From the NCBI GenBank assembly GCA_023664865.1, contig JAMPEU010000019.1, positions 1-52,125 of the forward strand: a stretch of DNA of 52,125 bases. The letters are read 5' to 3'. Shown in pieces: positions 2-12,358 of this stretch (its first letter is position 1; each line of letters begins with the position of its first letter). Below the pieces are notes generated by a model, which worked only from the letters and a program-made list of their open reading frames with translations, had not been told where the DNA came from and did not search any database. The DNA comes from Butyrivibrio sp. Lineage in GTDB: Bacteria > Bacillota > Clostridia > Lachnospirales > Lachnospiraceae. The position numbers and the translations under genes are program-made.

Positions 2-1003
2 TTTCCTTCCATGCCGCATATGCTTACCGGCAAGGAAGTAGTTATGTCGCAGCCGGTTAATGACTGGTTTACGTATATCTGGGAAGATGAAGAAACCAAT
101 TCCTTTTATGATGAACTCAAAAAAGAAAATTTTAAATTTAATATATATACATTTGATACCAGTGTTCTTTGTGGATTTAATGATATAAAAATACTTGATG
201 GCAAAATTTCCAATGTAACAAATAAAGCACAAGAGATAGATATATTTTATAAGCTTTTATTTAAGACAATGACTAAAATGTCGAGCTACCGTATGTTCCC
301 AGAGTTATTAAAACCGTATTTTTATACTAATATGAACGAATATGAAAGCGTTGTTGAGGTAAAAGCAAACAGAATAAATCATCTTAATTATGACTTTTAT
401 CAGGGGTTATTGGAAAATGGACTGAAAAAAGATAAATCATCTAACTATGTTATATTTCAGCACCTGATGGGAACGCATGAATATACTACAGATGAAAATG
501 GAAATTATAAAGAGAACTCCACTTTAGAAGAAACTGCCAAAGGCTGCATGGTAATTGTTGAAGAATATCTTAATAAATTAAAGGAAGTTGGAGTATATGA
601 TGATGCAACGATAATCATTACATCTGATCACGGAAGTCGTAAAGAACCTCAGGTTATTTTTTACCTTAAAGAGCCGGGAGAAACTCATGACGTATCGCCC
701 ATAACCAATGCGCCTATCTCGTTTAGGGAGTTTATGCCTACCATTGCGAAGGCGGCAGGGCTTGATAATTCTGCATATGGACAGACTATATATGATTTTT
801 CTCAGGATGAACTTAGGGAGAGGACTATATGGATTAGAGAGTATGATAACGATTATCCTACACTCCCATACTATACGGGTGAAAAAGACGGTAATGCAAA
901 TGTATATTATGGCCATACTTATACCGGAGACATTGGAGATTTATTAAGGATAATAGATGAACAGCCTAGTGTGATTGAACCTATGGTAGATTCTTTTTTT
1001 TAA
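2..1003 (+). CDS. Membrane-anchored sulfatase/LtaS-like phosphotransferase, copy 1 (5' end outside window)
   Basis: The reading frame is open from the first bases, and FPSMPHMLTG at the edge aligns with FPSLPHMLTG in the middle of the two following paralogues. The membrane half and the first metal-binding Asp therefore lie upstream, and the ATG at 11 is internal. What remains is the C-terminal alkaline-phosphatase-superfamily domain, with the QHLMGTH segment and a SDHG metal site late in the protein (TSDHGSRKEP). Family members are extracytoplasmic metal-dependent hydrolases or phosphotransferases such as LtaS and EptA. The substrate is unknown; the neighbours suggest a surface polymer. It ends 28 bp before the ATG of copy 2, so the two are probably co-transcribed. 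Confidence is high for the family and low for the reaction. Confidence 0.85.
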   Translation, partial: FPSMPHMLTGKEVVMSQPVNDWFTYIWEDEETNSFYDELKKENFKFNIYTFDTSVLCGFNDIKILDGKISNVTNKAQEIDIFYKLLFKTMTKMSSYRMFPELLKPYFYTNMNEYESVVEVKANRINHLNYDFYQGLLENGLKKDKSSNYVIFQHLMGTHEYTTDENGNYKENSTLEETAKGCMVIVEEYLNKLKEVGVYDDATIIITSDHGSRKEPQVIFYLKEPGETHDVSPITNAPISFREFMPTIAKAAGLDNSAYGQTIYDFSQDELRERTIWIREYDNDYPTLPYYTGEKDGNANVYYGHTYTGDIGDLLRIIDEQPSVIEPMVDSFF

Positions 1004-1031
1004 ATTGATGGGAAAGGAGCATAATTGTAAA

Positions 1032-2738
1032 ATGTCGAAGAAACTCCCCAAAATAGGAATTACGTTTTTAGTTTGTTTTCTGCTTACTTTTATGTTGTTT
1101 ATTTTCGGACCGTCAGAAATATTTTTTGCAAATGTTACAGGATTTAAGTTTGTATATGGAGATTTCGGAGGATACATGGCTGTTTTGGCATTAGCTGCGG
1201 CTGTAATTCTGACGGCGGTAATTGCCTTCCTTCCTGATAAAATATATGGAGTATTACTTTCGATTGTATTCGGAATATCCCTCGCAGGATACATACAGGT
1301 TATGTTTCTTAATAAAAATCTGGATTTGCTTGGCGTGAATCCGGAAGGGTATAAAGCACAGTCGGGAGCTGTCTTTAATCTCATTATCTGGCTTGTGATA
1401 ATCGCTGCCGTAATAGTGTTTTCCTTTGTTAAATTTGATATCTGGAAAAAGTTTGTAACAGGGCTTTCAGCATTTTTATTGTGCATACAGCTTGTGGCGT
1501 TGATTTCACTTTTGGTTTCGGCAGGTGAAGAGGCATATCATTATCCGGAGGGGAAATGGCATTTGTCAGGTGAAGAGCAGTATACTGTATCCGCCGACAA
1601 AAATGTAATTATCCTGGTATTGGATTATTTCAGCAACCAGTATCTTGCCCCGCTTGAGCAAGCCTATCCGAATGCAACGGATTTTCTGCATGACTTTACG
1701 TATTATAATAATGCGGATTGCACTTATTTTGGAACTTTTCCATCTCTTCCGCATATGCTTACCGGCAAGGAAGTAGTTATGTCACAACCGGTCAATGATT
1801 GGTGTATGGATATCTGGGAAGACGAAGAAACCTATTCATTTTATAATGAACTGAAAAAGGAAAATTTCAAATTTAACGTATATACGCCGGATACTAATAT
1901 CCTCTGCGGCCTTAATGATGTGAAGATACTGGATGGCAGAATTTCCAATGTGGCAAATGAAGCGCAGGAAATAGACGTATTCTATAAGCTTTTATTTAAG
2001 ACAATGGCTAAGATGTCGAGCTACCGTATGTTTCCTGAGTTACTGAAACCATATTTTTACGCCAATATAGATGAATACGAGGATATTGTTGCAGTAAAGG
2101 ATAATAAGATAAACCATAATAATTATGACTTCTACCAGGGGCTTATGGAAAATGGATTGAAAACGGATAAATCCTCTAATTATGTTATACTTCAGCATCT
2201 GATGGGAACGCATCTTTATACCACAGACGAGAATGGCAATTATAAAGAGGATTCCACGCTGGAAGAGACGGCTAAGGGCTGCATGGTAATTGTGGAAGAT
2301 TATCTGAACCGGTTAAAAGAACTTGGAGTATATGATGACGCTACAATTATTGTAACCGCAGATCATGGCGGTCCGTATGATTCTCAAGTAATTTTTTATA
2401 TAAAAGAACCAAATGAAACGCATGATGTATCGCCGATAACCAATGCGCCCATCTCATTTAGAGAATTTATGCCGACTATTGCGAAAGCGGCAGGACTTGA
2501 CGTTTCCGCTTACGGACAGACTATATATGATTTTTCTCAAGACGAGCTTAGGGAGCGGACTGTATGGCTTAGAATGTATGATGAAAATTATCCTGCTGTC
2601 CAATGCTATACTGGTGAAAAGGACGGCAGTTCAAATGTTTATTATGGCTATACTTACACAGGAGACATTGAAGATTTGCTAAAAATGGCGGATGAACAGC
2701 CAAGCGTAATTGAACCTATAGCAGATTCTTACTTTTAA
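1032..2738 (+). CDS. Membrane-anchored sulfatase/LtaS-like phosphotransferase, copy 2
   Basis: 568 aa counted from ATG 1032, chosen because AAAGGAG lies about 12 bp upstream and the protein then aligns end to end with copy 3. About five hydrophobic segments occupy residues 8-34, 47-67, 71-93, 112-134 and 140-163, followed by an extracytoplasmic catalytic domain from about residue 188. Visible elements are the metal-binding Asp in ILVLDYF (about 198), a GTFPSLPHMLTG block whose Thr (about 235) sits where the phospho-accepting Thr/Ser nucleophile lies in this superfamily, QHLMGTH (388-394) and TADHGG (about 442-447). The architecture recalls LtaS/EptA-type phosphotransferases more than soluble sulfatases. 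It is followed by copy 3 after 26 bp. An unusual feature is the near-perfect conservation among the three copies of the membrane half and of the nucleophile block, while the middle region diverges. Confidence 0.88.
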   Translation: MSKKLPKIGITFLVCFLLTFMLFIFGPSEIFFANVTGFKFVYGDFGGYMAVLALAAAVILTAVIAFLPDKIYGVLLSIVFGISLAGYIQVMFLNKNLDLLGVNPEGYKAQSGAVFNLIIWLVIIAAVIVFSFVKFDIWKKFVTGLSAFLLCIQLVALISLLVSAGEEAYHYPEGKWHLSGEEQYTVSADKNVIILVLDYFSNQYLAPLEQAYPNATDFLHDFTYYNNADCTYFGTFPSLPHMLTGKEVVMSQPVNDWCMDIWEDEETYSFYNELKKENFKFNVYTPDTNILCGLNDVKILDGRISNVANEAQEIDVFYKLLFKTMAKMSSYRMFPELLKPYFYANIDEYEDIVAVKDNKINHNNYDFYQGLMENGLKTDKSSNYVILQHLMGTHLYTTDENGNYKEDSTLEETAKGCMVIVEDYLNRLKELGVYDDATIIVTADHGGPYDSQVIFYIKEPNETHDVSPITNAPISFREFMPTIAKAAGLDVSAYGQTIYDFSQDELRERTVWLRMYDENYPAVQCYTGEKDGSSNVYYGYTYTGDIEDLLKMADEQPSVIEPIADSYF

Positions 2739-2764
2739 TAGATAAAAAGGAGCATTACCATAAG

Positions 2765-4474
2765 ATGACTAACAAGCTCTCCAAAATAGGAATTACATTT
2801 TTAGTTTGTTTTCTATTTGCATTTATGCTGTGTATTTTTGGACCGTCGGAGATATTTTTTGCAAATGTCACAGGATTTAAGTTTGTATATGGGGATTTCG
2901 GCGGATATATGGCGCTCTTGGCACTAGCGGCGGCTGTAATTCTGACGGCGGTAATTGCTTTCTTGCCTGATAAAATACATGGAGTATTGCTTTCGGTCGT
3001 ATTCGGCATATCTCTGGCAGGGTACATACAGGTTATGTTTCTCAATAAAAATCTGGATTTGCTTGGAGTAACTCAGGAGCGATATAAAATACGCTCGGGG
3101 GGGGCAATTTTAAATATAATTATCTGGCTTGTAATAATAACTGCTGCAGTGACGCTGTTTTTCATTAAATCAGATATCTGGGAAAAGCTGGTGTCAGGTC
3201 TCTCGGCGTTTTTGCTGTGCATACAGCTTGTGGCATTGGTGTTTCTCTTGATTTCGGCGGACAAAAGCGCTTATAAACGTCCTGAGTATATTTGGCATCT
3301 TTCAGGAGAAGACCAGTACACGGTATCTGCCAATAAAAACGTGATTGTACTGATTTTGGATTATTTCAGTAATCAATATCTTGCCCCGTGCTATGAGGAA
3401 TATCCGGACGCCACAGATTTTCTGCATGATTTTACATATTATAGCAACATGGACTGCACCTACTTTGGCACTTTTCCCTCTCTGCCGCATATGCTTACAG
3501 GACAGGAAGTAGTTATGTCGCAGCCTGTGGACGATTGGTGCATGGATATCTGGAAAAGTGAAGAAACAACTGCTTTTTATGGCAGACTTGCCGAAAATAA
3601 TTTTAAATTTAACGTATATACTCCGGAAATTAATATACTCTGCGGTTTAAATGACGCTAAGATGCTTGACGGTATGATTTCAAATATTACGGACGATGCT
3701 CAGGATATAGCTGTAGACCATAAGCTTTTATTTAAGACAATAATTAAGATGTCGGCTTACCGAATGTTCCCGGAGATATTAAAAACCTATTTCTATGCCG
3801 ACGTAGACGAATATGAAGATATTGTCTATACAGATGTAAATAGAATTAATTATAAAAACAGTGATTTTTATCATGGACTTATTGATAATGGATTACATGC
3901 GGACGAAAACGCCAACTATGTTATATTTCAACATTTAATGGGACCGCATTACCTTACCACAGACGCAAACGGCGAATATAAGGAATACGCGTCTTTAGCG
4001 GAGACTGTGAAAGGCTGTATGGTTATAGTGGAAGAGTATCTGAACCGGCTAAAGGAACTTGGGGTATATGATGATGCGACTATTATAATTACGGCGGACC
4101 ATGGTGATGTAAATGACTCACAAGTTATTTTCTATATTAAAGAACCCGGGGAGACCCATGAAGTAAGTCCTGTTACCAACGCGCCGGCATCATTTAATGA
4201 ATTTATGCCGACTATTGCGAACGCGGCAGGGCTTGATTCTTCTAATTATGGACAAACTATATATGATTTTTCGCAAGATGAGCTTAGAGAGCGTACCGTA
4301 TGGGTAAGAAAGGACGATTCGGATTATCCACAGGTGCCGTGTTATACGGGGCTTAAGGATGGGGATTCCAACGTTTACTATGGCTATACCTATACAGGAG
4401 ATATTGATGATTTATTAAATCAAATTAGCGAAGGTCCAAACGTAATTATTCCTATGGCGGATTCCTTCTGGTAA
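2765..4474 (+). CDS. Membrane-anchored sulfatase/LtaS-like phosphotransferase, copy 3
   Basis: 569 aa; ATG 2765 follows AAAGGAG with the same leader layout as copy 2. It has five N-terminal hydrophobic segments, then the alkaline-phosphatase-superfamily domain with LILDYF, GTFPSLPHMLTG, QHLMGPH and TADHGD. Differences from copy 2 cluster between the nucleophile block and the DHG site (residues about 260-430), so the copies may differ in substrate or partner, or may simply be drifting after duplication. The predicted site of action is the outer face of the cytoplasmic membrane. After this gene comes an A+T-rich repeat tract rather than another short operonic gap. Confidence 0.87.
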   Translation: MTNKLSKIGITFLVCFLFAFMLCIFGPSEIFFANVTGFKFVYGDFGGYMALLALAAAVILTAVIAFLPDKIHGVLLSVVFGISLAGYIQVMFLNKNLDLLGVTQERYKIRSGGAILNIIIWLVIITAAVTLFFIKSDIWEKLVSGLSAFLLCIQLVALVFLLISADKSAYKRPEYIWHLSGEDQYTVSANKNVIVLILDYFSNQYLAPCYEEYPDATDFLHDFTYYSNMDCTYFGTFPSLPHMLTGQEVVMSQPVDDWCMDIWKSEETTAFYGRLAENNFKFNVYTPEINILCGLNDAKMLDGMISNITDDAQDIAVDHKLLFKTIIKMSAYRMFPEILKTYFYADVDEYEDIVYTDVNRINYKNSDFYHGLIDNGLHADENANYVIFQHLMGPHYLTTDANGEYKEYASLAETVKGCMVIVEEYLNRLKELGVYDDATIIITADHGDVNDSQVIFYIKEPGETHEVSPVTNAPASFNEFMPTIANAAGLDSSNYGQTIYDFSQDELRERTVWVRKDDSDYPQVPCYTGLKDGDSNVYYGYTYTGDIDDLLNQISEGPNVIIPMADSFW

Positions 4475-4595: not shown

Positions 4596-4856
4596 ATGAA
4601 AAAAACTGTATTACAAATCTTTAAATTTACTTACTTCTTTAGCTGCTTTTTTACACTATTTACTATTCATGCGCATGCCTACATTGATCCGTCTGCCGTT
4701 ACATACATTATTCAGGGCGTTGCCGGCGTGCTGATTGCGCTTGGAGCGGCGTTTACTATTTTCCGTCATAAGATTTTTGCACTTTTTAAAGGCAAAAAGA
4801 AAGAAACGGATACTGAGGAAAAGATTGAATTTAAGAAGACTGACGACGAAGATTAA
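4596..4856 (+). CDS. Small secreted or membrane-anchored protein with YIDPSAVTY motif
   Basis: 86 aa; ATG 4596 follows AAAAGGAG. The N-terminus is a typical signal peptide (KK, hydrophobic stretch, then HAHA-Y, with likely cleavage after about residue 28). A short conserved-looking YIDPSAVTYIIQ segment follows, then a Gly/Ala-rich transmembrane helix (about 40-58) and a charged Lys/Glu/Asp tail. The mature protein would be a one-TM protein with a cytoplasmic charged tail. No enzyme motif is present. It lies between the phosphotransferase copies and the YidC fusion, so it could be an accessory subunit of the same system. The function is not known to me. Confidence 0.75.
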   Translation: MKKTVLQIFKFTYFFSCFFTLFTIHAHAYIDPSAVTYIIQGVAGVLIALGAAFTIFRHKIFALFKGKKKETDTEEKIEFKKTDDED

Positions 4857-4920
4857 AATGTATTTGTGTCTGTAAAATGCAGGCGCAAAGCTGTATGATG
4901 TTGAAAGGCACGGAAATATT

Positions 4921-6795
4921 ATGGGAATGATTGTAAATGCCGTGGTGGACGCTCTTTTATGGATAATCAATATCTGTTATCTTGTCTGCCACAACTACTG
5001 GATTGCTATTTTGCTCTTTACATTTTTATCAAAGGTGATATTACTGCCATTGTCAGTCTGGGTGCAGAAGAATTCAATTAAGACCGTCCGCATGCAGCCG
5101 GAGATGAATCATATCAAAGCAGCTTATATGGGTAACAGTGAACTGATATCCGAGGAACAGTATAAGCTATTTAAAAAAGAGGGATATAATCCATTTGCAG
5201 ATTTGATTCCGCTGTTTGTACAGCTTGCACTGTTAATGGGCGTTGTGGAAGCGGTTAAACGCGGGACGACGCTTACGGCAGTGCCTATAAACGAAATGGG
5301 TGTTACTTTGCTTGTTCCTGCATTGGCGGCATTGTCGGCGTTTTTCATGTGTTTTGTGCAAAACAAGATTAATGTCCTGCAGTCGGAACAGGGAGCGCTT
5401 AACAGATACGGCACGATGATTTTTTCGGTAGCTTTATCGCTCTATCTGGGATTTTTCGTCTCAATAGGCGTAGGCGTATACTGGATATACAGTAATCTTT
5501 TATCTGTACTGCAGCTTGTGCTTTTAAATATCTGGATTAATCCTAAGAAGTATATCGATTATGAGGCGCTTGAGGAAAGCAAAGAAGAGCTGCGCAAGGC
5601 GAAACAGTTTATGGCGCCGAAGAAAAAAGAGGCGCGCAATAACCCGTATCGTAAGAAAGAGAAAGAAGATTATAAAAGATTTCTTGCAGCATCCGGGAAA
5701 AAGCTGGTATTTTATTCGGAAAAAAACGGTTTCTACAAATATTACAGAAATATTATAGAAGAAATAATACGCCGCACCAATATAACGGTCCATTATATTA
5801 CAAGCGATCCGCAGGATGAGGTTTTTGCTTTGGCGAATGAACAGTTTAAGCCATATTACATAGGGGAAAACAGATTAATTGTCCTGATGATGAAACTGGA
5901 AACTGCTATTATGGTAATGACGACTCCTGATTTGGAAAATTTTCAGCTTAAGCGTTCTTATGTGGATAAAGATATTGAGTATATTTATGTGCCTCATGAT
6001 GTAAACAGCGCCAATCTGACGTTCCACAAGGATGCGTTAGACCATTTTGACACTATTTTTGCATCAGGACCGAAAAATAAAGAAGAAATTATGGAGCGGG
6101 AAGAAAAATACAATCTGCCTAAAAAACACATTGTAGAATGGGGTTCAAGCGTTATTGACAATATGAAAGAGGCGTATGAGCAGCTTACCGCAGTAAAAGA
6201 AGATGGTCAAAAAACGATTTTAATCGCCCCTTCATGGCAGAAAGACAATATACTTGACTCATGTATCGAGCCGCTGCTTGATGGATTAAAGACATCAGGG
6301 CATCGGATTATTGTGCGTCCGCATCCGCAATATGTACGCCACTTTGAGGCAAGGATTGACGCGCTTGCCAAGCAGTATGAGGAAGACGGCATTGAGTTTC
6401 AAAAGGATTTTTCCTCAAACAGCACGGTATATACGGCAGATTTACTGGTTACAGACTGGTCGAGCATTGCGTATGAGTATGCTTTTTCCACGCTTAAGCC
6501 TGTGCTTTTTGTCGATACGCCCATGAAGATAGTAAATCCGGATTACGCTGAACTTTCATGCGTGCCGATAGATATTGAACTGAGAAATAAAGTCGGCATT
6601 TCCGTGGAAGAAGGCAAAATTGCAGAAACGGCGGGAATGGTTGAGCGGCTTTTAGGCGATAAACAGTTCTCAAAAGATTCGATGAGAAATATGCGGGATA
6701 ACTATATCTATAATGTCGGCAACAGCGGCAAAATCGGAGCCAAATATATTATAGACAGCTTGGTTAAGCGCGAATCAGATAAGAAAGGAAATTAG
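4921..6795 (+). CDS. Fusion: YidC/Oxa1 insertase domain + CDP-glycerol glycerophosphotransferase-like domain
   Basis: 624 aa in one uninterrupted frame. Residues 1-215 are YidC/Oxa1-like: about five hydrophobic segments, the TM1 motif SKVILLPLSVWVQ with Lys38 at the position of the conserved positively charged groove residue, and NPFADLIPLFVQLALLMG (90-107), which matches the NPLxGCLPxLLQ signature. A highly charged linker (about 216-255) leads into a TagB/TagF-type domain (about 258-615) with VPHD (357-360), IIVRPHPQ (463-470) and TDWSSIAYEYAF (511-522), equivalents of the His and S/T-rich nucleotide-binding motifs. TagF-type enzymes polymerise polyol phosphates from CDP-alcohols at the membrane. 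Here the YidC part could act as membrane anchor or as a true insertase. The gene ends 6 bp before the AEP transaminase start, which ties it to phosphonate synthesis. The domains are clear; the combined role is inference. Confidence 0.88.
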   Translation: MGMIVNAVVDALLWIINICYLVCHNYWIAILLFTFLSKVILLPLSVWVQKNSIKTVRMQPEMNHIKAAYMGNSELISEEQYKLFKKEGYNPFADLIPLFVQLALLMGVVEAVKRGTTLTAVPINEMGVTLLVPALAALSAFFMCFVQNKINVLQSEQGALNRYGTMIFSVALSLYLGFFVSIGVGVYWIYSNLLSVLQLVLLNIWINPKKYIDYEALEESKEELRKAKQFMAPKKKEARNNPYRKKEKEDYKRFLAASGKKLVFYSEKNGFYKYYRNIIEEIIRRTNITVHYITSDPQDEVFALANEQFKPYYIGENRLIVLMMKLETAIMVMTTPDLENFQLKRSYVDKDIEYIYVPHDVNSANLTFHKDALDHFDTIFASGPKNKEEIMEREEKYNLPKKHIVEWGSSVIDNMKEAYEQLTAVKEDGQKTILIAPSWQKDNILDSCIEPLLDGLKTSGHRIIVRPHPQYVRHFEARIDALAKQYEEDGIEFQKDFSSNSTVYTADLLVTDWSSIAYEYAFSTLKPVLFVDTPMKIVNPDYAELSCVPIDIELRNKVGISVEEGKIAETAGMVERLLGDKQFSKDSMRNMRDNYIYNVGNSGKIGAKYIIDSLVKRESDKKGN

Positions 6796-6801
6796 ATTCA
6801 T

Positions 6802-7923
6802 ATGGTAAAAAGAAATGTATTACTAAATCCGGGACCGGCAACAACTACGGACACAGTCAAGATGGCGCAGGTAGTACCGGATATATGTCCAAGGGAAAAA
6901 GAATTTGTGAAAATTATGCAGGAGCTTGAAGAGGGGCTTTTGAAAATCGTGCATGCCAATCCTGATGAATATACGGCGGTATTATTCTGCGGTTCGGGAA
7001 CTATCAGCATGGATATCTGTTTAAATTCCCTGCTGCCTGCGGATAAAAAGATACTGATTATCGATAACGGCGCATACAGCCGCAGGGCAGTGGAAATCTG
7101 CGAATATTACGGTCTGCCGCATATTGACCTGCAGATGCCGCTTAACGCACAGCCTGACTTAGATAAAGTGGAGTCAGTTCTAAAGGAGAACAGCGATATA
7201 GCATTAGTATATATAACGCACCACGAAACGGGTACGGGGCTGCTTAACCCCATACGCAAAATAGGCGCGCTTGCGCATAAATATAATGCGGTTTTTGTGA
7301 CGGATACCACATCTTCTTATGCCATGATACCTATTGACATAGCGAAAGATGAAATAGATTTCTGCATGGCGTCTGCGCAAAAAGGCATTATGGGAATGAC
7401 AGGACTGTCATTTGTTATCGGCAAAAAGAAGGAAATTGAAGCTTCTGCGTCATATCCCAAACGCTCTTATTATTGTAATCTTTATATGCAGTATGACTAT
7501 TTTAAGAAACATGGCGAGATGCACTTTACACCCCCGGTTCAGGTAATCTATGCTGCAGTTCAGGCATTAAAGGAATATTTTGCAGAAGGAGAAACGGCAA
7601 AGTGGGAGAGGCATACGCGCGTCTTTAATGCAATCTGCTCCGGTCTTAGGGAACTTGGTTTTCAGATATATATGCCGGAGAAAATCGCTTCCGGTTTAGT
7701 GGCTGCGGCGTTGTATCCTAATGATGAAAACTGGGATTTTACGAAAATTCACGATTATTGTTACGAGCGCGGCTTCACAATATATCCCGGCAAAGTTGAA
7801 AATACCGGAATGTTCAGGCTGTGTGCGCTGGGCGCGATAGACGAGGCGGATATACATGATTTCTTTAAGGTGTTTAGAGAGGCGCTTGAGGTAAATAATG
7901 TGGCAATACCTGTGAAAATGTGA
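6802..7923 (+). CDS. 2-aminoethylphosphonate aminotransferase (PhnW/AepZ-like)
   Basis: 373 aa, PLP-dependent class-V fold. Visible elements: LLNPGPA near the N-terminus, a FCGSGT phosphate-binding loop (62-67), the Asp that pairs with the PLP ring nitrogen in VTDTTSS (168), and the Schiff-base Lys in SAQKG (194). The family interconverts 2-AEP plus pyruvate with phosphonoacetaldehyde plus alanine. Beside PEP mutase and phosphonopyruvate decarboxylase the likely direction is AEP synthesis. The start is 6 bp after the YidC fusion and AAGGAA lies about 12 bp upstream. A related alanine-glyoxylate-type aminotransferase is the alternative, but context favours AEP. Confidence 0.85.
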   Translation: MVKRNVLLNPGPATTTDTVKMAQVVPDICPREKEFVKIMQELEEGLLKIVHANPDEYTAVLFCGSGTISMDICLNSLLPADKKILIIDNGAYSRRAVEICEYYGLPHIDLQMPLNAQPDLDKVESVLKENSDIALVYITHHETGTGLLNPIRKIGALAHKYNAVFVTDTTSSYAMIPIDIAKDEIDFCMASAQKGIMGMTGLSFVIGKKKEIEASASYPKRSYYCNLYMQYDYFKKHGEMHFTPPVQVIYAAVQALKEYFAEGETAKWERHTRVFNAICSGLRELGFQIYMPEKIASGLVAAALYPNDENWDFTKIHDYCYERGFTIYPGKVENTGMFRLCALGAIDEADIHDFFKVFREALEVNNVAIPVKM

Positions 7924-7936
7924 TAGCTGAATGTGA

Positions 7937-8079
7937 CATGAACTCATATGATTCCACTTGAGGTCCTTGGAAAACGCCGGTACTTAGTGAAAAAGCTGTT
8001 TTTTAGCTTTTGAACTTAGTACCGCTGCGTTTTTCCACGGAGCGGGAGCGTACCTCAAGAGGAAGCATATGAGTTTATG
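7937..8079. repeat. Family A hairpin repeat, copy A1
   Basis: Outer arms CATGAACTCATATG and CATATGAGTTTATG, continued by TTCCaCTTGAGGT / ACCTCAAGaGGA, enclose the family core: GGTACTtAGT...ACTtAGTACC around an AAAAGCT/AGCTTTT stem, then an ACGGAGCGGGAGCGT segment. The whole 143 bp can fold as one long hairpin. It sits in the 204-bp gap between the AEP transaminase and the PEP mutase gene and is inverted relative to A2-A4 in plus-strand coordinates. Confidence 0.75.
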
Positions 8080-8127
8080 CCGCCCAAAGTTGTCAGTGAT
8101 AATAATTTATATACTAGGAGGATTATT

Positions 8128-9423
8128 GTGAAGAGAGTTTATACATGTTTTTGTACGGATGTGATTCATGAAGGGCATATTAATATCTTAAATAATGCGA
8201 AAAAATACGGTGAAGTTATTGTCGGCATACTGGCGGACGAGGCAATGGTGCGTTTCAACCGTTTTCCCACTGTGCCAATAGAGCAGAGGATTAAGATGGT
8301 AGAAGATACCGGGCTGGCGGCTAGGGTAATTGTGCAGAAGGAAATAATGTATGACGGTATTTTTGCTGAAATAAAACCTGACTATGTGGTCCATGGAGAC
8401 AACTGGAAGGAAGGACCGGAGAAAGTAATCCGTGACAACGTGCTTGATAATATTGCCCGCTATGGCGGGGAACTGGTGGAAATTCCCTATACCTACAATG
8501 AGGAAGTTAAGAAGATAGACGACCGCATAAAGGAGAAGCTTTCCATGCCGGAATTCAGGCGTAAACGCCTTCGCCAGCTTCTTAAGATGCGCCATATAGT
8601 TAAGGCGTTGGAGGTTCATTCCGGACTTACAGGATTGATTGCTGAAAAGACTGTGGTGGAAAGCAGCGGAGAATTGGATCAGTTTGACGCTATGTGGATT
8701 TCCAGCCTCTGTGATTCAACGGCAAAAGGGAAACCCGATATTGAGCTGGTGGACATGTCTTCGCGTATCCGTACCATAGACGATGTAATGGACGTGACGA
8801 CCAAGCCCATTATTCTTGACGGAGATACGGGCGGACTGGTAGAGCATTTTGTCTATAATGTGCGCACACTGGAAAGAATGGGAGTTTCGGCAGTTATCAT
8901 AGAAGATAAAACGGGACTAAAGAAAAATTCTCTTTTCGGTACGGAGGTAGAGCAGACTCAGGACAGCATCGAAAACTTTACCGCTAAAATCCGCGCAGGA
9001 AAACAGGCGCTTAGGACTGATGATTTTATGATTATTGCCCGCATTGAAAGCCTTATCTTGGAACGTGGAATGGAAGATGCACTGACAAGAGCTTTTGCCT
9101 ATGTTGACGCGGGGGCGGACGGCATCATGATTCATTCACGCCGTAAAGAGCCGACGGAGATACTTGAGTTTTGCAGCTTGTTCCGCAGTAAAAATAAGGA
9201 AACGCCTATAGTTGTAGTTCCCACTTCTTTTAACAGCATTACGGAAGAAGAACTTGCCGCTGCAGGCGTAAACATTGTGATTTATGCTAATCAGCTCACC
9301 AGAAGCGCATTTCCGGCAATGCAGGGAGCCGCAATAGATATTTTAAAACACCACAGGGCTTTGGAGATTGATTCCCGCTTAATGCCGTTTAAAGATATAA
9401 TAAGACTGATTGATGAGATTTAG
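8128..9423 (+). CDS. pepM: Phosphoenolpyruvate phosphomutase with N-terminal cytidylyltransferase-like domain
   Basis: 431 aa from GTG 8128, chosen because AGGAGG precedes it by 6 bp and the cytidylyltransferase fold begins there. Residues about 1-135 form an HxGH-type nucleotidyltransferase domain (CFCTDVIHEGHINIL, HEGH at 14-17; HGDNW at 89-93). Residues about 160-431 are PEP mutase of the isocitrate lyase/PEP mutase superfamily, with DGDTGG (231-236) and a perfect EDKxGxKxNS signature, EDKTGLKKNS, at 259-268 that marks true mutases. The enzyme rearranges PEP to phosphonopyruvate, the entry step of nearly all C-P bond synthesis. The following PntC-like gene starts 10 bp after its stop. The N-terminal domain may activate the phosphonate or a partner alcohol; its substrate is unknown. 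Confidence 0.92.
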   Translation: MKRVYTCFCTDVIHEGHINILNNAKKYGEVIVGILADEAMVRFNRFPTVPIEQRIKMVEDTGLAARVIVQKEIMYDGIFAEIKPDYVVHGDNWKEGPEKVIRDNVLDNIARYGGELVEIPYTYNEEVKKIDDRIKEKLSMPEFRRKRLRQLLKMRHIVKALEVHSGLTGLIAEKTVVESSGELDQFDAMWISSLCDSTAKGKPDIELVDMSSRIRTIDDVMDVTTKPIILDGDTGGLVEHFVYNVRTLERMGVSAVIIEDKTGLKKNSLFGTEVEQTQDSIENFTAKIRAGKQALRTDDFMIIARIESLILERGMEDALTRAFAYVDAGADGIMIHSRRKEPTEILEFCSLFRSKNKETPIVVVPTSFNSITEEELAAAGVNIVIYANQLTRSAFPAMQGAAIDILKHHRALEIDSRLMPFKDIIRLIDEI

Positions 9424-9433
9424 GAGGTCCAGT

Positions 9434-10126
9434 ATGCAGGAGATTGCAATACTAATGGCGGCAGGCCTTGGCACACGCATGAGGCCGATTACGGATACAA
9501 TGCCTAAGCCGCTTGTTGCAGTAAAGGGAAAACCGATGATAGAGACTGTAATAGAAGGACTTTTGACCAGACCGGTCGATGAGATATATGTGGTTACAGG
9601 TTATCTTGCAGAACAATTTGAGTATCTGCCTGCGCGGTATCCGCAGGTCAGGCTGATTCATAATCCCGACTACAATGTGAAGAATAATATCTCTTCCATT
9701 TATGCGGCAAAAGATGCGCTTGAGCGTGGTAACTGCTTTATATGCGAGTCGGATTTATATATTGCGGATTCGGCTATTTTTAAGAAAGAGTTGTCAAATT
9801 CCTGTTATTACGGGCGTATGCAGGCAGGATATTCCGACGACTGGGTATTTGACCTTGAAGACGGTCATATCGTAAGAATCGGCAAAGGCGGTACGGACGT
9901 ATACAACATGGTAGGGGTTTCCTATTTAAAGCATGCCGACGCCTTAATATTAAAAGAGGAAATTGAAAAAGCCTATATAGAGGAAGAAAACGGCAGTCTC
10001 TTCTGGGACGAAGTAATGAACAACAATTTGGATAAACTTTATCTAACCGTTGAGTCTGTAGCGGAAGGCCAGCTTATTGAAATTGATACTGTGGAAGAAT
10101 TGGAGAAAATCAATGAAAGCATTTAA
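9434..10126 (+). CDS. PntC-like nucleotidyltransferase, probable CTP:2-AEP cytidylyltransferase
   Basis: 230 aa; ATG 9434 lies 6 bp after AGGAGG, which overlaps the pepM stop. The N-terminus AILMAAGLGTRMRPITDTMPKPL is the G-x-G-T-R-(x)n-K-P nucleotide-binding signature of the LicC/GlmU-type NTP transferase fold, with the metal-binding ESDLYI further on. Family members of this size beside pepM and ppd are AEP cytidylyltransferases that form CMP-AEP. LicC-type choline-phosphate cytidylyltransferase is the main alternative, less likely without choline genes nearby. The 3' end overlaps the decarboxylase start by 14 bp, which implies translational coupling. Confidence 0.82.
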   Translation: MQEIAILMAAGLGTRMRPITDTMPKPLVAVKGKPMIETVIEGLLTRPVDEIYVVTGYLAEQFEYLPARYPQVRLIHNPDYNVKNNISSIYAAKDALERGNCFICESDLYIADSAIFKKELSNSCYYGRMQAGYSDDWVFDLEDGHIVRIGKGGTDVYNMVGVSYLKHADALILKEEIEKAYIEEENGSLFWDEVMNNNLDKLYLTVESVAEGQLIEIDTVEELEKINESI

Positions 10127-11231
10127 ATTGTTAGAGCAGATAGAAAATATGGGAATTGAAGTAATCACGGGCGTACCCGATTCCACTTTAAAACAATTTT
10201 GTGACGGATTACAGTTATATAACGGTAAATTCCGCCATTATGTGACGGCAAACGAAGGCGCTGCCGTAGGAATTGCCGTAGGCACATATCTTGCCTCAGG
10301 GAAACCTGCATGTATTTATATGCAGAATTCAGGCATCGGCAATGCCGTCAATCCGCTTGCTTCCCTTGCAAACAAAGATGTGTACGGTATTCCGATACTG
10401 TTTATAGTGGGCTGGCGTGGGGAACCCGGTGTAAAAGATGAACCGCAGCATGTATTTCAGGGAAAAATCACATGCAGACTGTTTGAGACTATGGATGTTC
10501 CCTATGCCGTTGTGGATTCTTCCACCACGGAAGATGAGATGCTTGCAATACTGCAGGAAGCAGAAAAAAACTTTAAGGAAAATAACCAATTTGCCATTAT
10601 TGTTAAAAAAGGCACGTTTGAGGCGGATAAAAAATTCACATGGGAAAACGGAAATACTCTTCTTAGAGAGCAGACGCTTGGCACAATCCTTAAGCTTGCG
10701 CCAAAAGACGCCTGTATTGTATCAACCACGGGTAAAATCTCGCGAGAGCTGTATGAGCAGAGCAACAAGCTTTTTGGCAATCATGATTCCATTTTTATGA
10801 CGGTAGGCGGCATGGGACATGCTTCCATGATAGCCTTCGGCATTGCAAAGCAAAGACCTGATAAGAGGGTAATATGTATAGACGGCGACGGAGCGGCTTT
10901 AATGCACATGGGCGCTCTTTCGTTTATTGCTTCACATGCTCCTAAGAATTATGTCCATATAGTGATTAACAATCAGGCGCACGAATCCGTAGGCGCAATG
11001 CCCACAGACTGCCCTGATACGAATTTTGCAGCTTTGGCGCAGACGGCAGGCTATGTATATACGGAGAGAATTACGGATATGGAAGGGCTGTTGGGGATAA
11101 AAGAAGGGCTTGCAGCTAAGAAAGGCCCCGTATTCTATGAAATTATGGTGTCTCTGGCATCCCGCGCCGATTTGTCACGCCCCGCAGAAACCGCCAGGGA
11201 AAACCGCGATGTATTTATGAAATCGCTGTAA
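10113..11231 (+). CDS. Phosphonopyruvate decarboxylase
   Basis: 372 aa, thiamine-diphosphate enzyme. The start at ATG 10113 is supported by GGAG 8 bp upstream, inside the end of the previous gene. The N-terminal pyrimidine-binding half contains the catalytic-type Glu in ANEGAAVG (about 48). The C-terminal half has the TPP/Mg motif GDGAALMHMG (258-267) closed by INN (285-287), and NNQAHESVG matches the active-site segment of Ppd. It converts phosphonopyruvate to phosphonoacetaldehyde, pulling the unfavourable PepM reaction forward, and the product feeds the transaminase at 6802-7923. It is the last gene of the locus; the next feature is a terminator hairpin shared with the opposite-strand ncRNA. 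Confidence 0.92.
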   Translation: MKAFKLLEQIENMGIEVITGVPDSTLKQFCDGLQLYNGKFRHYVTANEGAAVGIAVGTYLASGKPACIYMQNSGIGNAVNPLASLANKDVYGIPILFIVGWRGEPGVKDEPQHVFQGKITCRLFETMDVPYAVVDSSTTEDEMLAILQEAEKNFKENNQFAIIVKKGTFEADKKFTWENGNTLLREQTLGTILKLAPKDACIVSTTGKISRELYEQSNKLFGNHDSIFMTVGGMGHASMIAFGIAKQRPDKRVICIDGDGAALMHMGALSFIASHAPKNYVHIVINNQAHESVGAMPTDCPDTNFAALAQTAGYVYTERITDMEGLLGIKEGLAAKKGPVFYEIMVSLASRADLSRPAETARENRDVFMKSL

Positions 11232-11460: not shown

Positions 11461-12230
11461 TTATAGAATTTTTTTATTTCCAAATATATCTTTGCGATTT
11501 ATTCCGCCATCATACAACCGCATCTGAATATTTTTATGTGTTTTCTTGAACTTTGGAGTCATTCCAGCATGTTTACGCGCTAAGTCATTATGTATAAAAT
11601 CGGCAATTTGCAATCCGGTGATATTATCTTTTTTACTTTTAAATTCTAAACCGGAAATACTTTTTTGAATTACACTAGAAGGATAGAATATAGTGCCTGA
11701 ATAATAAATTTGATTATATTTTTTAGAATTGATTCATTTTGTTTATCTTGCAATTTTTCATAACAAATAGAACCTATTGAATTATTTCTGATTAAGAAAT
11801 GACAGAAATTTTCTATAACTAATTGCATGCATATTGTAAATTTATTATTAGCTATGTTGCCGTCATAATAATTTTCAACATTATCAACGCACAAAGATGC
11901 TCCAATGGTAGTAATATTCTTATCTGATAAAATATAAGCCATTTCTTTATATGCACGTGTATAATTTGCTTCTATACAAAACATTTTATTATATTTTTCA
12001 ATTTCAGAAAAATGTTTCTGGTGAGCTTCGTATATTTCTAACTCATGAAGAATATGTTTACTATAATCCGTATCTTTTTGCCAAATGCGCTTTTTGCTAT
12101 TATTAAGTCTATTTGTCAAATCGTTATCATGATAAGAACGTTCAACAATAATACCGCCTATGCAAAAGTATTTTTTCCCACTACTATTTTTTGTTTCACT
12201 TTCATCCAAATATAAGGTATATTCACCCAT
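11461..12230 (-). pseudogene. DUF3800 family protein, frameshifted
   Basis: Translation from ATG 12230 (AGGAG 7 bp upstream) gives the DUF3800 start YTLYLDESE. This frame ends at 11670 with an unrelated tail. From about 11700 another frame continues with GTIFYPSSVIQK, GLEFKSK, NITGLQIADFIHNDLARKH and a Tyr-Asp-Gly-Gly tail, stopping at 11461; GLQIADF is the typical C-terminal DUF3800 motif. The frames switch near an A6 run (T6 at 11719-11724 on the plus strand), consistent with a 1-nt indel, a sequencing error, or slippage. The intact protein would be about 256 aa. DUF3800 proteins are of unknown function, with a proposed RNase-H-like fold and frequent links to structured RNAs. Confidence 0.8.
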
Positions 12231-12358
12231 CAAATGCTCCTATTCTATAATTATGTATATGTCATTTTTCACTATTATACGACAAGATAATGCAAAAAGC
12301 TATCGTAATTTAGGTTTATTATGAAAATAATTTATATAAAAATAATTCCCTCCACATA

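Follow-up and report, generated by a model that had tools for sequence, protein, structure and literature searches.

The YidC-GPT fusion and its neighbours

The window analysed here is a whole contig of 52,125 nucleotides (G000:C91). Its first 11 kb carry the following features:

11–1003, plus strand: SULF-type AP-superfamily protein, start missing at the contig edge (Sulfatase 22.9 bits, cut-off 25)
1005–2738, plus strand: SULFa, putative LtaS-like membrane enzyme with five predicted TM segments and an AP-superfamily domain
2765–4474, plus strand: SULFb, second complete SULF copy (structure predicted)
4596–4856, plus strand: YDP protein (IDPS), 86 aa, with an N-terminal hydrophobic stretch, Y-I-D-P, one TM helix and a basic tail
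4921–6795, plus strand: YidC-GPT fusion, open frame of 624 codons plus stop
4921–5625, plus strand: YidC/Oxa1 domain of the fusion (aa 1–235)
5626–6795, plus strand: linker and Glyphos_transf (GPT) domain of the fusion
6802–7923, plus strand: PhnW/AepZ 2-aminoethylphosphonate transaminase (TIGR03301, 461.7 bits, cut-off 360.8)
8077–9423, plus strand: Fom1-type cytidylyltransferase domain fused to PEP mutase (TIGR02320, 412.8 bits, cut-off 319.55)
9410–10126, plus strand: LicC/PntC-like cytidylyltransferase (LicC 1jyk, 2.9e-35; PntC 6pd1, 1.3e-10)
10077–11231, plus strand: phosphonopyruvate decarboxylase, Ppd (TIGR03297, 447.8 bits, cut-off 312.5)

A minus-strand ORF of 187 aa (11670–12233) separates this operon from ribosomal protein genes.

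The first-pass annotation had described a single continuous 624-codon frame joining a YidC to a Glyphos_transf domain, 6 bp from the 2-aminoethylphosphonate (AEP) genes. The frame (4921–6795) is indeed open through the linker, the motifs quoted there were found, and 6 bp separate the end of the fusion stop (6795) from the PhnW ATG (6802). Both domains scored above their Pfam cut-offs: 60KD_IMP with 98.1 bits (cut-off 35) over aa 26–203, and Glyphos_transf (PF04464) with 47.8 bits (cut-off 22.1) over aa 373–530, the latter match covering only positions 132–291 of the 367 in the profile.

The NCBIfam yidC_oxa1_cterm cut-off was narrowly missed by the fusion (81.5 against 84.3 bits), and we therefore regard its YidC domain as a diverged paralogue, not as a canonical YidC. 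Two features of the YidC/Oxa1 family, a basic TM1 residue and the YidC fold, are present. Lys38, nearly invariant among 55 homologues, aligns with a TM1 arginine of Bacillus halodurans YidC2 that we take to be the groove Arg72, and structure comparison with B. halodurans YidC gave 2.5 Å rmsd over 195 residues. TM prediction gave an N-terminal hydrophobic helix and five further segments; conserved polar positions in or near these helices include K38, Q101, Q147, N148 and N192. The fold, the basic TM1 residue and the five TM helices with an N-terminal helix are thus common to this domain and YidC/Oxa1 insertases, from which it differs as a non-housekeeping copy whose usual cytoplasmic tail is replaced by an enzyme. 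For the GPT domain the top fold match was TagF, tied with GT-B UDP-GlcNAc 2-epimerases; since LtaS is similarly tied with many sulfatases for SULF (see below), function is not given by fold alone.

A second YidC, of normal size, is encoded on contig C109 of the window genome, for which reason we rejected the view that the fusion is the housekeeping insertase. A plasmid search with the fusion as query gave no match at 1e-20.

Recurrence of the fusion

The fusion proved recurrent, a point that the first-pass annotation had suggested checking. It is present in 16 of 61 genomes, window genome counted, one of the 16 being split over two contig ends. A chance frame or an assembly join was rejected on account of this recurrence. 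Named isolates are among the carriers: Lachnospiraceae bacterium A4 (L079), with PepM genes beside the fusion, COE1 and G41.

A scan of named genomes confirmed at least 406 relatives, the 80 top scorers of which made up the set of named loci used throughout. The GPT frame also contains YidC sequence in all of these best 80 of at least 406, a figure biased towards fusions since the loci are top scorers. Full-length fusions account for 79 of the same 80. The exception, L129 (strain 526-35), has a fusion frame of 518 aa and a further YidC piece in the neighbouring frame, and this shortened copy may be broken. Internal stops are listed for two other matches: one TAA in G386, yet an 802-aa two-domain frame is open in L157, and one TGA in G032, although the frame at its locus L038 is intact at 622 aa.

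In an even draw of 391 Clostridia genomes, the GPT subfamily was found in 14, whose hits comprised 5 fused (frames of at least 634 codons) and 17 unfused (413–459 codons). A survey of 398 genomes of the phylum gave the subfamily at E 1e-15 or better in seven and the YidC-SULF form (see below) in three; one of the seven (G467) has the GPT subfamily without any other part nearby.

Specificity of the YidC-GPT association

As a control, we used 18 genomes picked as carriers of the system, with a proximity threshold of 5 kb. Of their 49 YidC-family domains, 18 have housekeeping size (one in each genome) and the other 31 belong to longer frames. None of the 18 housekeeping-size domains lies within 5 kb of a Glyphos_transf match, versus 29 of the 31 in longer frames, 12 of these sharing the frame; two of the 31 are away from Glyphos_transf, which counts against the association. 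The same genomes hold 56 Glyphos_transf matches. The 20 with E below 1e-28 all lie farther than 5 kb from any YidC domain, and of the 36 weaker ones 25 are near YidC (1.4e-16 to 9.5e-7), the other 11 counting against. The YidC-GPT association is specific.

The TagF-like label of the first-pass annotation is correct in part: the Glyphos_transf cut-off is passed, but by score the GPT domain falls outside the group of classical TagF-like proteins that these genomes also encode. Compared with TagF/TarL (PF04464), the fusion matches only part of the profile and has different nucleotide-activating neighbours.

SULF enzymes and the YDP protein

The tandem TM 'sulfatases' and the 86-aa protein were overlooked by the first-pass annotation as parts of the same proposed machine as the fusion. 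Three tandem SULF-type copies lie upstream of it (11–4474), the first truncated at the contig edge with its frame open to the window's first bases. All three remain just under the PF00884 cut-off of 25 (22.9, 20.1 and 24.2 bits, 20.1 being SULFa), a difference from LtaS and PptA; SULFa reaches the Phosphodiest cut-off exactly (23 bits). Relatives such as L045, L046, L114, L092 and L156 pass PF00884.

Five hydrophobic segments precede the AP domain. The SULFb model (pLDDT 90.7) shows an AP fold, which LtaS and many sulfatases match with similar Z, and the best solved sequence-profile match of SULF is LtaS (1.7e-9), followed by choline-sulfatase (1.8e-8). In an alignment of 34 rows, D199, D445 and H446 are invariant and T236, the probable nucleophile, nearly so (D/T/H/DH set). 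The signature of LtaS and the AP superfamily is present, with N-terminal TMs, the AP fold, a Thr at the presumed nucleophile position and the D/DH ligands. The five TM segments, the fold and the nearly invariant Thr are shared with LtaS and with PptA, which we take to be an AP-superfamily enzyme as well. SULF is a putative LtaS-like phosphotransferase. SULF was within 10 kb or fused in only 54 of the best 80 of at least 406 named loci, which counts against the mechanism proposed below.

The YDP protein (4596–4856) gave no family match over cut-off in Pfam or NCBIfam. Its relatives lie within 4 kb of the fusion in 74, and within 150 bp in 69, of the best 80 of at least 406 named loci. A signal-peptidase-like gene (Peptidase_S26, PF10502; e.g. 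L042:12846–13298) is found in 18 of these best 80, and in none of 17 loci of the other architecture (YDP-GPT plus YidC-SULF, see below). An A-x-A directly before Y-I-D-P suggests that the YDP protein may be the substrate of this signal-peptidase-like enzyme.

Re-wired architectures

YidC, GPT, YDP (the small Y-I-D-P TM protein) and SULF are four modules naturally re-fused as one set. We observed YidC-GPT with a separate SULF, YDP-GPT with YidC-SULF, triples in both orders, and YDP-SULF. The triples are SULF-YidC-GPT in a single frame (L114, 1192 aa; L123, 1180 aa, open at the contig end) and YidC-GPT-SULF (L092, 1241 aa), and YDP-SULF is a single frame of 756 aa (L156). L114 and L092 pass all three Pfam domain cut-offs. 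A YidC-SULF gene lies within 3 kb of 16 of 18 unfused YDP-GPT genes; L048, the latter half of a fusion that a contig end divides, is not counted among the unfused. In a tree of YidCs, each kind of extra YidC, and the housekeeping set, forms one side of a branch, a pattern that suits a common origin of the two extra kinds no better than separate ones.

The window genome itself carries a second locus on contig C163, where a GPT protein starting with a Y-I-D-P-G helix is followed by a YidC-SULF gene. This second system (L051, L189) is broken between contigs C163 and C70, the C70 piece matching the part of the YidC-SULF profile that is missing from C163.

The AP domain of SULF is presumably on the outside, as in LtaS; the predicted hydrophobic segments then allow a cytoplasmic GPT and an external SULF in every fusion order. 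The modules travel together and re-fuse in ways compatible with this topology, and the headgroup module described below is exchangeable.

In another family, the L186 (genome G810) and L190 (G750) loci have genes for GPT, a YSDP small protein and SULF-like proteins; L186 carries AEP genes, and the GPT of L190 is a fragment at a contig edge. Each of these genomes has one YidC, of housekeeping size. An extra YidC is thus not always needed, which counts against the mechanism. Either YidC was added in particular lineages, then, or another protein fills its role in L186 and L190. The order in L186 (3694–9692) is AEP genes, unfused GPT, a 66-aa YSDP protein, then two SULF-like genes. This arrangement is possibly a simpler form of the system.

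These loci also bear on a further explanation, close to the second suggestion of the first-pass annotation, in which the YidC domain would serve SULF and the YDP protein as their own insertase or chaperone and couple their insertion to the transferase. We consider it improbable: L186 and L190 have SULF-like genes and a YSDP protein but no extra YidC, and each of the 18 carrier genomes already has a housekeeping-size YidC. The kept YidC fold and the predicted membrane-protein partners encoded next door are what such an insertase would account for.

Headgroup genes and the likely donor

In the Lic and Pnt systems headgroup synthesis and a cytidylyltransferase occur together, and the same combination is found at 6802–11231 (PepM, Ppd, PhnW and the LicC/PntC-like gene). 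The N-terminal domain of the PEP mutase protein (8077–9423) matched 5x3d (3.3e-27), which we take to be the Fom1 cytidylyltransferase domain. Two distinct cytidylyltransferases, Fom1-like (8077–9423) and LicC/PntC-like (9410–10126), are present in one phosphonate operon, and either may activate AEP.

The first-pass annotation had asked whether the fusion always lies beside pepM. This was so in only 36 of the best 80 of at least 406 named loci. Choline kinase modules were found in 4 of the same loci, NTP-plus-decarboxylase-like modules in 11 and NTP only in 8; the 21 with no local module count against the mechanism proposed below. In 12 of the 21 module-less genomes that were checked, PEP mutase was elsewhere in 8 and absent from the assembly in 4. 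At the position of the AEP genes, L044 and L049 have a choline kinase, a LicC-like gene and a BCCT transporter, and in other relatives a threonine-phosphate-decarboxylase-like enzyme (6oux, 6.8e-42) carries a fused cytidylyltransferase-like domain.

A quick tree of 57 fusion rows, which has some long branches, that of L049 above all, requires nine or more changes among the three module types. Rows were PepM, choline-kinase or NTP-plus-decarboxylase loci with frames of at most 760 aa (L092, L114, L123 and L157 left out), thinned from 67 to 57 by removing near-identical rows, and any locus with PepM was labelled AEP. The headgroup module is exchangeable: by homology, AEP in the window, and phosphocholine or serine/threonine-phosphate-derived amines in relatives.

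Across the 391 Clostridia, PEP mutase is encoded in 11 of the 14 genomes with the GPT subfamily, whether in fused or unfused form, versus 21 of 377 others (Fisher 5.7e-11). Counting by genus, which removes relatedness only partly, gave 6 of 7 versus 15 of 215 (2.3e-6). This enrichment and the LicC/PntC-like neighbour support the suggestion of the first-pass annotation that a CMP-activated phosphonate is a likelier donor than CDP-glycerol; the GPT donor is probably not CDP-glycerol.

We accordingly hold it to be very improbable that the fusion is a TagF-type CDP-glycerol polymerase tethered by YidC and making a teichoic-acid-like polymer. The neighbours give, by homology, CMP-AEP, choline or ethanolamine-type donors, and the 20 high-scoring Glyphos_transf matches of the carrier genomes, from which the GPT scores apart, are other proteins, none near YidC. 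A polymerase would fit the Glyphos_transf score above the Pfam cut-off and the TagF fold match, tied as this is with GT-B epimerases.

No LicD (PF04991) match was found in the window genome (completeness 96.63). Of the 18 carrier genomes, however, 11 do have LicD, which counts against the mechanism proposed below. In L187 a LicD gene (4900–5688, 156.9 bits) directly precedes a YidC-SULF gene; LicD and the YidC-GPT-SULF system can therefore share a locus.

A proposed surface-decoration machine

We tentatively propose, as a reading with a real though not a better than even prospect, that the fusion forms the centre of a machine that spans the membrane and decorates the surface with a zwitterionic headgroup, here AEP. 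By homology, PepM, Ppd and PhnW would make AEP, which the LicC/PntC-like enzyme would convert into CMP-AEP. The cytoplasmic GPT would then move AEP from CMP-AEP onto a membrane acceptor, probably a lipid or a lipid-linked glycan. In the third and weakest step, the YidC domain and the YDP protein would provide a hydrophilic path for the headgroup lipid across the membrane; we tentatively favour such a passage over protein insertion or the polymer conduction raised in the first-pass annotation. Outside, the LtaS-like SULF would use this lipid to modify a surface polymer.

The scheme implies that a YidC-family protein was converted from protein insertion to moving a lipid-linked zwitterionic headgroup from an inside phosph(on)otransferase to an outside LtaS-like transferase, which we regard as possible but doubtful. 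Indirect support for the crossing step comes from the fusion of YidC now to the inside enzyme, now to the outside one. It also comes from parts of sugar systems that share the logic: 28 of the best 80 of at least 406 named fusion loci have relatives of GT2, GtrII or YfhO, some of the GT2 matches being without C-terminal TMs; in the other architecture (YDP-GPT plus YidC-SULF) such relatives were found in 1 of 17 loci, GT2 only. We know of no bacterial member of the Oxa1 superfamily for which moving lipids was described earlier as a physiological role. In vitro, Escherichia coli YidC and other Oxa1-family proteins are described in a preprint as scrambling lipids (PMC10491306), which lends the crossing step further indirect support.

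Decoration could instead take place at the cytoplasmic face in a LicD-like manner: GPT would load an undecaprenyl-linked glycan with AEP (or choline or ethanolamine phosphate), an ordinary flippase would export it, YidC would be a mere anchor or scaffold, and SULF would act separately in trimming or transfer. Such a route would suit the Lic-like modules of some relatives (choline kinase, LicC-like gene and BCCT in L044 and L049), the absence of a LicD match from the window genome, and L186, whose GPT protein has no predicted TM segment and whose genome has no extra YidC. It leaves unexplained why YidC is also fused to the presumably external SULF, and why polar YidC positions (K38, Q101, Q147, N148, N192) are conserved. 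We judge it possible but less likely than not.

Relation to known systems

The proposed machine resembles the Lic1 phosphocholine and Pnt phosphonyl-tailoring pathways, as outlined in PMC6697681, in its CMP-activated zwitterionic headgroup and LicC/PntC-like enzyme. There transfer is by LicD, whereas in the window genome, without a LicD match, the transfer would presumably fall to a GT-B-fold Glyphos_transf domain joined to YidC. In transmembrane glycosylation (CsbB, GtcA, YfhO), as summarized in PMC8035078, an inside enzyme loads a lipid, a membrane protein moves it and an outside enzyme uses it. The same logic of inside loading, movement and outside use is proposed here, with phosph(on)ate in place of sugar, a YidC-family protein in place of GtrA/Wzx and an AP-superfamily enzyme in place of GT-C. 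PptA, compared with SULF above, is reported to be a pilin phosphocholine transferase (PMC10434233).

A further parallel is CD0244 of Clostridium difficile, a TagF-like protein reported to be required for type A flagellin modification; the neighbouring nucleotidyltransferase CD0242 is proposed to make CDP-threonine as an activated intermediate (PMC10714395). CD0244 is like the GPT of the fusion in being TagF-like, in having a nucleotidyltransferase neighbour and in belonging to a pathway with a proposed nucleotide-activated donor other than CDP-glycerol; the passages of that report describing CD0244 mention no YidC domain.

The headgroup pathway and the families of all the enzyme parts are known already; the YDP protein gave no family match above cut-off. 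What appears to be new is the YidC fusion, the re-wired four-module set and the exchangeable headgroup module, none of which was found described in a literature search reaching few subscription journals.

The step by which phosphonates are transferred to bacterial surfaces is poorly known, and later phosphonate tailoring steps have been called enigmatic (PMC6697681). The finding gives a candidate transferase, its partners and cultured carriers. It also shows that, in gut Clostridia, a single chassis is combined with headgroup modules of the phosphonate, phosphocholine and ethanolamine type. Were the proposal true, it would describe a transmembrane phosphodiester/phosphonate decoration system with AEP, choline or serine/threonine-phosphate-derived amines as headgroups. 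The YidC step, if true, would be a natural and testable case for the reported lipid scrambling by insertases, and would give a bacterial member of the Oxa1 superfamily a physiological role in moving lipids.
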